A DNA stretch of 37,071 bases, taken from positions 1-37,071 of IMG/VR virus record IMGVR_UViG_3300034198_002656. One strand, 5' to 3'. The notes beneath the pieces are model-generated. The model searched no databases. It was not told where the DNA came from and saw nothing but the letters and a program-made list of their open reading frames with translations. This DNA is from a virus. Each line of letters starts with the position of its first letter. Within the stretch, counting starts at the first letter, position 1. Below are positions 11,727 to 15,227 of this stretch, one piece after another. The translations under genes and the position numbers were made by a program.

Positions 11727-11917
11727 TCTGCTTTCCTCTTAGGTAATGGTGCCCAGAATTGCCAAAATGGGTCACCGTGGTAGTTGCTGTATTGCGCCAC
11801 ACCGCCTTGTCCTAGAAGTTGCAACTTCACCCCTCGTGGTGTGTTCTCGTCAATCGGTAGCCAGTAGTAGTCGGTCGCCACTGCTGCGGTGCCTGTGCTG
11901 TCGATCTTGTGGCTCAT
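11723..11917 (-). CDS. Small early protein ending in 'FWQFWAPLPK', unknown
   Basis: The 64-aa protein begins MSHKIDSTGTAAVATDYYWL and ends GDPFWQFWAPLPKRKAE. The central block LPIDENTPRGVKLQLLGQGG and the Trp-rich end form a conserved small domain met often in phage early operons. I take ATG 11917 as the start because it is preceded by AAGGAGCTGAACAC; an in-frame ATG 16 codons upstream (11965) lies within the preceding gene. The function is unknown. It overlaps the next gene by four bases. Confidence 0.75.
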   Translation of the reverse strand: MSHKIDSTGTAAVATDYYWLPIDENTPRGVKLQLLGQGGVAQYSNYHGDPFWQFWAPLPKRKAE

Positions 11918-12051
11918 GTGTTCAGCTCCTTCAGTTTGGATTGAATTTCTATTGCCATGTACCACAGGCCCGCTGAAGTGTTTGATGCAATGATTTTCAT
12001 AATCGCTACATCAGTCAGGTTTACCCACGGGCGCTTTGTTAATTTCTTCAT
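11914..12051 (-). CDS. Short 'WVxLTD…KLKELNT' protein, possibly truncated at the ATPase junction
   Basis: From ATG 12051 the frame gives 45 aa (MKKLTKRPWVNLTD … MAIEIQSKLKELNT). The 'RPWVxLTD…A.EI..KLKELNT' pattern is shared with the ends of the proteins at 13598-13888 and 14055-14411, so it is a paralogue. The same frame stays open upstream with phage-like sequence (THEPVKDIGFEQDERVFARIAA), back to a CTG at 12120 inside the 3' end of the ATPase gene. No start with a good ribosome site is found: GTG 12072 and ATG 12051 both lack one. This suggests the original N-terminus was lost or altered when the ATPase gene arrived. Its last codons encode the ribosome site of the next gene. Confidence 0.6.
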   Translation of the reverse strand: MKKLTKRPWVNLTDVAIMKIIASNTSAGLWYMAIEIQSKLKELNT

Positions 12052-12109
12052 GGCGGCAATGCGCGCAAACACTCGTTCATCTTGCTCAAAACCAATGTCT
12101 TTTACTGGC

Positions 12110-13276
12110 TCATGCGTCAGGCTTCCCTTTTGAAGTTTTTTTGGGGGTAGGCGGTTGCTCGCTCGTGTACTTTCGGATGGTGTCTCGGCTCACCCCGGTG
12201 ATGTCGGAGATCGTGTGCTGCGAAAGACGAGTCTGCTTGGCCAGCAGCACCGCCAGATCAATACGCCCCTGACGTTCAAGGACGAGTGCGCGCGATTTGA
12301 CGAATTCTTCGATCAGGTCAGCGTCCGAGGCTGTACCCAATGCGACGGCACGCCGGAATCGCTGAAGATCCCGCTCGATGTCGCTGAATGATTCACCATT
12401 GAAGACGAAGGTCAGAATGTCGATCCAGCGCCCGAACAGCGCATAGTCCTGGCCCAGAAAGCGCTTGATCGCCTGTTTGACGGCCGGCATTTCTGGTGCC
12501 TTAAAGTTGATCACTAGGTCGAAGCGTCGCCACAACGCAGGATCGATCAGCTCTGCATGATTGGTTGCAGCCAGCAGCAAACCCGTAGCAGGCCACTCAT
12601 CGACCTCCTGCAGGATGACGGTGACCAGCCGCTTCAACTCGCCGATATCGGCGTCGTCGCTGCGGCGCTTGGCGATGGCGTCGATTTCATCCAGTAGCAG
12701 CACACAGGGGGTGCGTTTGGCGTAATCAAGCGCGGTGCGCAAGTTGCTCCCGCTGCGCCCCAGTAGGCTGCTCATAACGGCGGTCAGGTCCAGCACATAC
12801 AACGGCACGCCCAATTGCGAGGCTAACCAACGCGCTGTGAGCGTTTTGCCGACTCCTGGCGGCCCCACAAAAATAGCGGATCGTGTTGGGCTCAGGCCCA
12901 TTGATGCCAGCCGCTCCGTCTGACGACGCTCTTGAATCAGTTGACTCAAAGTTTCTTCAAGCTCAAGCGAGAGAAGGGGTTGCTCGCGACTGGGCTCGTC
13001 CTTGAAAACCTTCAGCAGTGACAGTCTCGATTCGTCGTCGACAGGCAAGGTTTGAAGCGGCAATGTGGGTTGGGGAATTTTGCGCATGGGCGCGCTTGAG
13101 CGAGGCGCCTTCGCACGTAGATACAGATCCATCTGTTCAGCCAGCTCCGGGTCGGTATTGCGATACTTGCGCACGAGCCGAGCCACAAACAGTCGGACGT
13201 CCTCTGTTTGCTCGGCGAGTGCCAGCCTGATCAACTGGGCTAAATCAGCTTGAAATTCATTCATTTCGTCCAACAT
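12110..13276 (-). CDS. AAA+ ATPase with C-terminal helix-turn-helix; orphan member of a protease-associated ATPase family
   Basis: The 388-aa protein has a helical N-terminal region (1-60), a Pro-rich linker, and one AAA+ domain. Walker A is GPPGVGKT at about 138-145, Walker B is LLLDEID at about 193-199, sensor 1 is in AATN at about 236-239, and the arginine finger pair is WRRFD at about 249-253. The domain is of the FtsH/ClpX-like central ATPase type. The C-terminal part (about 350-370, LSQHTISDITGVSRDTIRKY) is a helix-turn-helix. I recognise the pattern 'SNLRTALDYAKRTPCVLLLDEIDAIAKRR…ELKRLVTVILQE', read in parts, from ATPases encoded beside S8 subtilisin-like proteases, including in defence-type islands. 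No protease is in this window. GC content looks clearly higher than its neighbours, and an AT-rich promoter-like gap precedes it: a cargo (moron) gene. ATG 13264 is an alternative start. Confidence 0.8.
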   Translation of the reverse strand: MLDEMNEFQADLAQLIRLALAEQTEDVRLFVARLVRKYRNTDPELAEQMDLYLRAKAPRSSAPMRKIPQPTLPLQTLPVDDESRLSLLKVFKDEPSREQPLLSLELEETLSQLIQERRQTERLASMGLSPTRSAIFVGPPGVGKTLTARWLASQLGVPLYVLDLTAVMSSLLGRSGSNLRTALDYAKRTPCVLLLDEIDAIAKRRSDDADIGELKRLVTVILQEVDEWPATGLLLAATNHAELIDPALWRRFDLVINFKAPEMPAVKQAIKRFLGQDYALFGRWIDILTFVFNGESFSDIERDLQRFRRAVALGTASDADLIEEFVKSRALVLERQGRIDLAVLLAKQTRLSQHTISDITGVSRDTIRKYTSEQPPTPKKTSKGKPDA

Positions 13277-13301
13277 CTTTGTAACTCATTGATTTTAATT
13301 G

Positions 13302-13321
13302 ATATTTTATTTTTAAAATAT
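13302..13321. promoter_or_regulatory. AT-rich inverted repeat before the ATPase gene
   Basis: An ATATTTTA arm (13302-13309) pairs with TAAAATAT (13314-13321) across a TTTT loop, inside a 62-bp very AT-rich gap (13277-13338). It is the only gap of this size in the otherwise tightly overlapped early operon. It could be the ATPase gene's own promoter or operator; on the minus strand several TAAAAT/TATCAAT-like -10 candidates occur, but no clear -35. A weak terminator for the upstream genes is the alternative. Confidence 0.4.
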
Positions 13322-13338
13322 GGAATAGACATATTTTC

Positions 13339-13449
13339 TCACGTTTTTGCTGAGATGTGAAGAACGGCGTGTGCGATGTCCACATGGGCGTAGATGTTGC
13401 GGTCGTATAGCATTTGAATCAACTCTTTCGTGGTCGGTTCTGCTTTCAT
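13339..13449 (-). CDS. 36-aa early protein
   Basis: ATG 13449 is preceded by AAAGGAGCTGAACAA, an excellent ribosome site, and the frame closes at TGA 13341-13339. The product, MKAEPTTKELIQMLYDRNIY then AHVDIAHAVLHISAKT, is a short helical peptide with no known domain. It overlaps the preceding gene by four bases (ATGA). It lies just upstream of the AT-rich gap and the ATPase. Small size lowers certainty, but the coupling and ribosome site are strong. Confidence 0.65.
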   Translation of the reverse strand: MKAEPTTKELIQMLYDRNIYAHVDIAHAVLHISAKT

Positions 13450-13601
13450 TTGTTCAGCTCCTTTGATTTAATTGCAGCATCTGCATCCATGCAAAAAAGC
13501 TCAATGATTTCCCATAATTCAATGCATCTGTTTTGCCATGCGATTGCGTTATGCAAAGCCTTTAGAAAAAGCTCACGCTCTTGCTCAAGCTCTAAGCTCA
13601 T
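13446..13601 (-). CDS. 51-aa helical early protein
   Basis: ATG 13601 follows AAAGGAGCTGAACAC. The product (MSLELEQERELFLKALHNAI… ending KSKELNK) is a charged amphipathic helix that may form a coiled coil. It overlaps the genes on both sides by four bases, and its last codons (AAAGGAGCTGAAC) are themselves the ribosome site of the 36-aa gene. No function is known. Confidence 0.65.
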   Translation of the reverse strand: MSLELEQERELFLKALHNAIAWQNRCIELWEIIELFCMDADAAIKSKELNK

Positions 13602-13888
13602 GTGTTCAGCTCCTTTAATTTGGTTTCAATGGCTCGGGCAAATGAATACGGCAACATCATTTCACCTTCCACGGTTAATAAGCCAGCATTAGCTATGTCA
13701 TCATCTGTCAGGTCTACCCATTCACGATGGTGTTGCAAGGTAGGTGAAAAGTATTTTTCAAACAGTTTCGCCATACCACCATGTTCGCCACATAACCAAT
13801 CAATAGTTTCATCAGTGTCTTCCCCGGCTTGTAATGCCAGTTGTTGAATTGCTCGATACAGTCGTTTGCTTTGCTCTTGTTTGTTCAT
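13598..13888 (-). CDS. Early protein, 'WVxLTD…KLKELNT' paralogue
   Basis: I start at ATG 13888 (MNKQEQSKRLYRAIQQLALQ), preceded by TTGGAGAAAAACAC; an in-frame ATG at 13933 would overlap the previous gene deeply. The 96-aa product has a helical N-terminal half (with GEDTDETIDWLCGEHGGMAK) and the C-terminal module EWVDLTDDDIANAG then FARAIETKLKELNT, which is shared with two other proteins of this operon. The module is common in phages of Burkholderiales-type hosts as I recall it; its function is unknown. Confidence 0.72.
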   Translation of the reverse strand: MNKQEQSKRLYRAIQQLALQAGEDTDETIDWLCGEHGGMAKLFEKYFSPTLQHHREWVDLTDDDIANAGLLTVEGEMMLPYSFARAIETKLKELNT

Positions 13889-14058
13889 GTGTTTTTCTCC
13901 AAAAAATCTTCGCACTTGCGTTTCCATCCCCATGTCTCCCGCATAACATAAACAGGCGCGTAAAAACGTGGTTTATGCAACATTGCACAGATCAGCGTTG
14001 GCTTAGGAAGTGCTCGCATAGTGGCGTGCCTGCACTGATTGCAGTGTTGAGTTTTCAT
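13885..14058 (-). CDS. 57-aa Cys-containing early protein ('HKPRFY…GWKRKC' type)
   Basis: ATG 14058 follows AAAGGAGATGAACAC. The product begins MKTQHCNQCRHATMRALPK and continues LHKPRFYAPVYV … GWKRKCEDFLEKNT. A CxxC near the start, a further Cys at about 24 and one at 49 could bind a metal. I recognise this as a recurrent small protein of proteobacterial phages without known function. It overlaps both neighbours by four bases. Confidence 0.72.
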   Translation of the reverse strand: MKTQHCNQCRHATMRALPKPTLICAMLHKPRFYAPVYVMRETWGWKRKCEDFLEKNT

Positions 14059-14411
14059 GTGTTCATCTCCTTTAATTTAGCTTCGACTTCAAGGCACAGG
14101 TCGTATGACCCTAGTTGCGCATCTGAAAACTCTTGGAGCTCCTCATCCGTCAGCCCTACCCACGGGCGCTGCACTACCTGCTTAGTCCTCACCGACTCCA
14201 ATGCTTTCCACCACCCAAAGGCGTACGCTGTTTGCTCGGCCTCGGTCTTGCATTCTGGCGGTGGTGATGGTGGCTGCGCTGCGGGTGAGGTTGCTTCTGG
14301 GTAGCACGCCTCACAAAATGGCCCGTCATGCTCGGTGTATAGAGAATCATCACCGGCGCCAGCACGTCCGGTGGCTTCGTCACATTTGCAACAGTATTCG
14401 TATTTTTCCAT
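14055..14411 (-). CDS. Early zinc-finger-like protein with C-terminal 'WVGLTD…KLKEMNT' module
   Basis: I start at ATG 14411 (MEKYEYCCKCDEATGRAGAG), preceded by GGAGAAATGAA; the in-frame ATG at 14480 lies inside the upstream gene. The 118-aa product has an N-terminal metal-binding-type domain (CCKC at about 7-10 and CEAC at about 36-39), a Pro-rich linker (SPAAQPPSPPPE), and a C-terminal module (RPWVGLTDEELQEF … EVEAKLKEMNT) shared with two other genes of the operon. The fusion suggests the module is a portable domain, perhaps for protein contacts. The role is unknown. Confidence 0.72.
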   Translation of the reverse strand: MEKYEYCCKCDEATGRAGAGDDSLYTEHDGPFCEACYPEATSPAAQPPSPPPECKTEAEQTAYAFGWWKALESVRTKQVVQRPWVGLTDEELQEFSDAQLGSYDLCLEVEAKLKEMNT

Positions 14412-14412
14412 T

Positions 14413-14616
14413 TCATTTCTCCTGCGCTGGCTGTGCCAAGGCTTCTTTGATAGCAGTAAGTTGTCGAGTGGCAATTCCAATAAATTCCCATGCTCGTCGG
14501 GCGTGCCACGCCTTCATTCCTTCATCGCTCTCCTGCCCGGTACCAGACATTCCTGCCAACGCTATTTCTTCCAGCGCCTCAAGCGCCATCTTCAATGCTT
14601 CTCGTTCTTTAGTCAC
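14413..14616 (-). CDS. Small 'ALKMALEALEEI' helical early protein
   Basis: The 67-aa protein (MTKEREALKMALEALEEIAL … TAIKEALAQPAQEK) is a two-helix protein of a type extremely common in phages and prophages of proteobacteria; its function is not known. The start is GTG 14616, overlapping the TGA of the pentapeptide gene (GTGA) with GGAG ten bases upstream. It ends one base before the next start. Confidence 0.75.
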   Translation of the reverse strand: MTKEREALKMALEALEEIALAGMSGTGQESDEGMKAWHARRAWEFIGIATRQLTAIKEALAQPAQEK

Positions 14617-15227
14617 TTTTTATCTCCTTTAGGTGTCCAGATTGCGGCATGAGCCTCAATCATCAAAATTGCCATTTCATACTCTTTGACATGGTCGTTG
14701 CCTTCGTGTGTCTTTTGCACTGCTTCAGCAAATTCGTCAAGCGAACCATCAAAACATCCAACTTTTACATGAATACCCTTGTCGGTAATGAATGAAAGTA
14801 GGTGGTCATTACGTGAACCGATAGGCCCACACTGAAAGAAAGGACGCTGACCAATCAATGATTTGTCATCCGTGATTTTGGCCCCGCGCAGATCGGCCTC
14901 ACTCAGATCGGCCCTGCGCAGATTGGCCCCGCGCAGATCGGCCCCGTACAGATCGGCCCTGCGCAGATTGGCATCGTACAGATCGGCCCTGCGCAGATCG
15001 GCCTCACTCAGATTGGCCTCGTACAGATTGGCTCTGTACAGATAGGCCCCGTACAGATAGGCCCCGTACAGATAGGCCCCGCGCAGATCGGCCCCGTACA
15101 GATCGGCCCCGTACAGATTGACTTTTCCAGTTACAGCTTTTTCCAGCGCCTTACGAATAGTCAGTTCACTACTATACTTATACAAAGTAACATCTGTATA
15201 CTGGTGTTTAATTTGATTAGTTACCAT
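14613..15227 (-). CDS. Pentapeptide-repeat protein
   Basis: The 204-aa protein has about 18 consecutive A(D/N)LxG/R-type pentapeptides (about residues 35-116: LYGADLYGADLRGAYLYGAY, then RANLYEANLSEADLRRADLY, and so on). Such a run folds into a right-handed quadrilateral beta-helix. The C-terminal 85 residues (FFQCGPIGSRNDHLLSFITD … EYEMAILMIEAHA) are a separate domain often found after such repeats in phage and bacterial proteins. Some pentapeptide proteins (Qnr, MfpA) mimic DNA and bind gyrase, but most have unknown roles, and this one lacks the loops of Qnr. GAGGAC precedes ATG 15227. At DNA level the repeats are a 15-bp tandem array. Confidence 0.85.
   Translation of the reverse strand: MVTNQIKHQYTDVTLYKYSSELTIRKALEKAVTGKVNLYGADLYGADLRGAYLYGAYLYGAYLYRANLYEANLSEADLRRADLYDANLRRADLYGADLRGANLRRADLSEADLRGAKITDDKSLIGQRPFFQCGPIGSRNDHLLSFITDKGIHVKVGCFDGSLDEFAEAVQKTHEGNDHVKEYEMAILMIEAHAAIWTPKGDKK
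14881..15120. repeat. 15-bp tandem repeats encoding the pentapeptides
   Basis: About sixteen copies of a 15-bp unit of the type CAGATCGGCCCCGTA occur in register. They vary mainly at CGC/TAC and CCC/CTC. Near-identity between neighbours indicates recent expansion by slippage or unequal recombination, so copy number may vary between strains. Confidence 0.85.

Follow-up and report, generated by a model that had tools for sequence, protein, structure and literature searches.

A putatively captured bacterial ietA gene without its ietS protease partner in a probably lytic phage

The 37,071-bp viral record analysed here, called the window throughout, raises the question of why a phage should carry the ATPase gene of a two-gene anti-phage system without the protease gene that accompanies it in bacteria. 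An earlier note, made from the sequence alone, had placed this ATPase in a protease-paired, defence-associated family, and that assignment proved right, the family being IetAS.

An IetA-type ATPase gene in a phage genome

Recognisable modules of the record include a P22-type portal, terminase, Prim-Pol, phage DNA polymerase, ssDNA-binding protein, PD-(D/E)XK nuclease and SNF2 helicase. The phage is podovirus-like, and it is probably lytic, since no integrase or other lysogeny gene was recognised among the window proteins scanned, which comprise part of the ORFs. Its nearest named phage is DSL-LC05. A search of 399 Burkholderiales genomes with the phage DNA polymerase returned no match; the ietA sequence itself points to Betaproteobacteria as the host.

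The ietA reading frame is genuine and has no internal stops (Table 1). The Walker A (GPPGVGKT, residues 138-145), Walker B (LLLDEID, 193-199), sensor-1 (AATN, 236-239) and arginine-finger (WRRF, R250 and R251) motifs listed in the earlier note are all present and are conserved across the family, and a Pfam AAA match (PF00004, E 6e-29) covers residues 135-259. The protein has an intact AAA+ core and a C-terminal helical bundle, for which an AlphaFold2 model (mean pLDDT 84) gives three confident helices (335-348, 353-360 and 364-372) at the place of the helix-turn-helix proposed earlier, a call that itself combines sequence with helix pattern. The PADLOC IetA profile matches residues 9-374 with 268 bits. 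NCBIfam NF042959 (anti-phage IetA, there named IteA) matches with 230.6 bits, below its 510-bit equivalog cut-off, and as judged from its sequence the window protein is a homologue from a subfamily other than the curated one. PHROGs assigns it to phrog_3757, a family of unknown function, and structure matches for IetA and IetS were generic AAA proteins (p97, FtsH) and weak subtilisin hits, with no solved structure of either protein among them and hence no template for an IetA-IetS complex. The window protein is an ordinary IetA-type ATPase.

The closest bacterial IetA proteins, with 95-96% amino-acid identity, come from Duganella, Nitrosomonas, Rhizobacter, Rhodocyclaceae and Hydrogenophaga, and the window gene groups inside a betaproteobacterial ietA clade (support 99/100) whose ietS partners are intact. 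None of the 254 positions that are invariant among 18 bacterial homologues is changed in the window, and the protein looks catalytically intact. Together with these invariant residues, the window-specific codon changes (approximately 19 synonymous vs 3 nonsynonymous; dN/dS approximately 0.07 relative to the nearest bacterium) show that IetA was functional until recently. The purifying selection seen on this branch may predate capture, which could lie anywhere along the branch, and is not proof that selection acted within the phage.

Table 1. Features of the ietA region of the window.
Feature	Position	Strand	Basis
3' remnant of phage accessory gene (EPVKDIGFEQDERVFARIAAMKK...KLKELNT)	11914..12109	-	homologous module in related phages
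ietS start vestige, ATG AGC CAG TAA	12102..12113	-	bacterial ATGAGCCAAACC vs window ATGAGCCAGTAA
Captured bacterial cassette (promoter, leader, ietA, first ietS bases)	12106..13404	-	nucleotide homology to bacterial ietAS
ietA, 388-aa complete AAA+ ATPase, predicted antitoxin half of IetAS	12110..13276	-	PADLOC, Pfam, bacterial homology
AT-rich 62-bp leader	13277..13338	-	gap upstream of ietA
Putative imported sigma-70-type promoter, TTCACA-17-GAAAAT, TG before second hexamer	13333..13361	-	conserved upstream block
Short upstream phage ORF, 3' end in cassette-derived sequence	13339..13449	-	homology comparison

The cassette and its boundaries

The gene is richer in GC (57.3%, GC3 66%) than the whole window (50.0%) and, as the earlier note had seen, than its neighbours (42-49% for two minus-strand genes), and this unameliorated composition says that the gene arrived recently. 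Nucleotide homology to the ietAS loci of the five bacterial groups named above (88-92% identity) has its right edge at 12106 for almost every closely related locus and its left edge at 13364-13404. Such boundaries indicate that the window carries a captured ietA cassette in which ietS is cut off at its first codons. As in bacterial ietAS, the ietS start overlaps the ietA stop as ATGA; the bases ATGAGCC are kept, after which the sequence switches to a phage gene fragment (EPVKDIGFEQDERVFARIAAM...) and the residual frame ends after three codons.

The upstream side is also bacterial. The 62-bp gap counted in the earlier note is exact, and it forms part of the promoter and leader imported with ietA; both upstream junctions checked have the 4-base overlaps described there (13598-13601 and 13446-13449). 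The promoter block is conserved upstream of many bacterial ietA genes, and it is the sole promoter-like site found in 11900-14000, a count that taken alone is not above chance. Because its own promoter came along with it, ietA did not belong to the phage operon originally.

As for the phage side of the right junction, related phages hold the same fragment mostly within longer ORFs with N-terminal extensions, and the cassette therefore probably replaced the 5' part of a phage accessory gene. The hexamer GAGCCA occurs both at the ietS start and in the phage gene, and this short match suggests itself as the point of exchange. The cassette is absent from sister phages that share the endolysin and helicase of the window, which makes it an optional gain, and in the closest of them the variable region measures 1-1.9 kb vs 4.3 kb in the window. 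No second phage with the same junction was found in IMG/VR by a search for the exact 24-base pattern. The small minus-strand ORFs of 11914-14500 share a C-terminal module (WVxLTDxE...KLKELNT), which related phages carry in shuffled arrangements within longer mosaic ORFs. A gene for a 204-aa pentapeptide-repeat protein (14613-15227) also lies in this variable region, which the endolysin and SNF2 helicase genes bound.

Pairing of IetA with the IetS protease

The earlier note had described the ATPase as an orphan, and a tblastn search together with a six-frame scan for the GTSxAxP motif found no S8 protease in the whole record. Of a complete IetAS system, which has an S8 IetS near ietA, only the ietS start codon remains beside the ATPase gene; what the window does hold is a phage-borne homologue of the antitoxin that lacks the accompanying toxin, the arrangement expected of a phage-encoded antitoxin.

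In bacteria the pairing is nearly perfect. Among 58 bacterial loci, three of them cut by contig ends, an intact S8 gene starts within or just past the 3' end of ietA in 51 of the 55 that are readable, so the absence of a protease neighbourhood, which the note had named as grounds for rejecting its reading, was not what we found. The other four (L021; L033, 7164-7957; L045; L061, 7164-8064) have an intact ietA next to a broken or interrupted ietS, and reflect either loss of the toxin in nature or, for some of them, a faulty assembly. A survey of 399 Burkholderiales genomes for close IetA (E below 1e-60) found IetA and IetS in the same 10 genomes and either gene alone in none.

Viral loci are similar. 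As a second ground for rejection the note had named phage homologues that always carry a protease which the window has simply lost, and this holds in part: an intact S8 ORF was found in 30 of 37 viral loci, and ietS was indeed lost in the window, though by a precise and clean cut. Of the seven remaining loci, at least four end before a whole protease could be read and one is ambiguous. Candidates for another lone viral IetA were set aside where the contig stops soon past ietA (L257), where an adjoining S8 gene was present and had been missed by the search queries (L265), or where the AAA genes have other neighbours (L264 and L266). The ambiguous locus (L255, 5755-9314) encodes a divergent IetA-like ATPase, followed by a 273-aa ORF that does not match S8 proteases and by a Hint-domain gene on the other strand, and is a possible second orphan.

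Antitoxin supply and its rivals

What the ATPase does without its protease can be approached from related pairs. The SGI1 pair, studied in E. coli, combines a toxic protease with an ATPase homologue that serves as its antitoxin (PMC5006074); in a minimal mycoplasma, deletion of the ATPase gene alone is lethal and deletion of the protease gene alone harmless (PMC6755753), and neutralisation has been confirmed for the mycoplasma pair (PMC8562856). This polarity is established in relatives that belong to a subfamily other than that of the window protein, and the four bacterial loci with intact ietA and broken ietS fit it. If IetA is the antitoxin in relatives and the phage has ietA alone, then the phage carries the antidote. 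Our analysis read the family, the capture boundaries, the absence of ietS, the intact sequence and the bacterial pairing directly, and takes the toxin/antitoxin polarity from this literature.

We therefore consider it somewhat more probable than all other outcomes taken together that the captured IetA would act as a functional antitoxin, neutralising host IetS to the benefit of the phage on hosts that carry ietAS. The absence of the toxin, the intact antitoxin, the kept promoter and the abrupt end of the cassette on the right, just where ietS begins, all argue for this. The course of events would be that a probably lytic, podovirus-like phage took promoter and ietA from a betaproteobacterial ietAS locus by illegitimate exchange, possibly at the common GAGCCA, severing ietS at its first codons. 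The imported promoter would then drive active IetA during infection, and phage IetA would bind or otherwise control the host IetS protease, holding it in the neutralised state at a time when infection would set it free. Cells whose ietAS matches would consequently not abort on infection, and the phage would presumably gain. Slightly better than an even chance may be given to the further claim that this is a counter-defence against IetAS of which no earlier phage example is known, in which a lytic phage took only a genuine AAA+ antitoxin and its promoter and holds the toxic host protease inactive during infection.

The main rival is that the phage recently picked up a fragment of host DNA, lost the toxic ietS as intolerable, and keeps the intact ietA as a relic without benefit as yet, which we hold to be a serious but minority possibility. 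Two of the points that speak against antitoxin supply suit it, namely that the junction is known from one phage only and that the unameliorated GC says the capture was recent; so do the 92% nucleotide identity, an insertion site in a variable patch of small ORFs, and the bacteria that likewise retain ietA after ietS has decayed. Because four bacterial loci keep ietA in this way, the loss of ietS needs no phage advantage. A mere relic, however, sits poorly with a gene that retains its whole reading frame, its promoter and every invariant residue, that imposes 1.2 kb as a real cost on a 37-kb genome, and that was cut so as to leave precisely the antitoxin and its own promoter. An assembly chimera, joining a phage contig to a bacterial ietAS read, might be suspected in a metagenomic virus contig whose junction has no second copy in IMG/VR, yet phage sequence lies on both sides and the ends of the insert coincide with a promoter and a start codon, so that two independent misjoins at natural boundaries would be needed; we think this most improbable.

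The earlier note had proposed that the phage copy disarms the host system as a decoy or dominant-negative subunit. Action against host IetAS remains the best explanation, with the mechanism revised from decoy to antitoxin supply. IetA-type AAA+ ATPases form rings, and 96% identity would suffice for the phage protein to mix with host IetA and poison the rings so that the system could not fire. No inactivating change is found, however, in Walker A, Walker B, sensor, arginine-finger or invariant residues, and it is because all of the latter are unchanged that we favour a functional antitoxin over a dead decoy; moreover, IetA alone is the antitoxin in related systems, and a wild-type copy acting as such already accounts for the outcome. 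A poisoning subunit is accordingly very unlikely. The least probable reading, also from the earlier note, is that phage IetA and host IetS together exclude other phages. IetAS is reported to be anti-phage and whole ietAS pairs do occur in phages and prophages, but those phages carry both genes whereas the window phage dropped the effector, and the proteins scanned, with their polymerase, Prim-Pol and P22-type portal modules, include no integrase or lysogeny gene; recruitment of a host protease in this way found no support.

Antitoxin supply by a phage has precedents, since phage-coded antitoxins are a known counter-defence, as with T4 Dmd, phiTE pseudo-ToxI and ICP1 AdfB, the last acting against DarT. 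The window shares with these a phage antitoxin without toxin that is expected to neutralise a host toxin, and differs in that its antitoxin is an ATPase captured almost unchanged from a host, is set against a protease toxin, and has a predicted activity. With the IetAS pairs of pTiC58, SGI1 (SgiAT) and mycoplasma (0132/0133) it shares the ATPase family and, as far as the ietS start codon, the promoter-ietA-ATGA-ietS order, and bacterial members are 96% identical to its IetA; unlike them, it lacks the toxin gene and is carried by a probably lytic phage. Three named phages or prophages (Pseudomonas Pf PfAC08, Enterobacter phiT5282H and Paenibacillus Yyerffej) likewise have an IetA homologue in a phage genome, but there the S8 protease gene accompanies the ATPase gene. 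The literature searched yielded no account of a phage IetA on its own, and the collections searched yielded no other lone ietA capture by a probably lytic phage. As a mechanism, lone IetA capture would be a variant of the phage-antitoxin strategy not seen before.

The literature consulted gives the mechanism by which IetAS blocks phages as unknown, and a phage from nature that has retained IetA alone points directly to free IetS as the effector and IetA as the switch; the window IetA also offers a ready reagent for work on IetAS. Half-capture may be a more general route, because a toxin cannot live without its antitoxin while the reverse is tolerated, which makes toxin-antitoxin loci a ready source of anti-defence genes. 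More cases could come to light if phages were scanned for antitoxin genes of two-gene defences that stand alone.

Some smaller observations were made on the loci surveyed. The deposited annotation of OR818368 (L012) swaps the names, with the ATPase labelled IetS and the S8 peptidase labelled IetA. On two alphaproteobacterial plasmids, a caspase-family protease cluster divergently adjoins ietAS (L008, 2638-4894; L009, 2637-4888).
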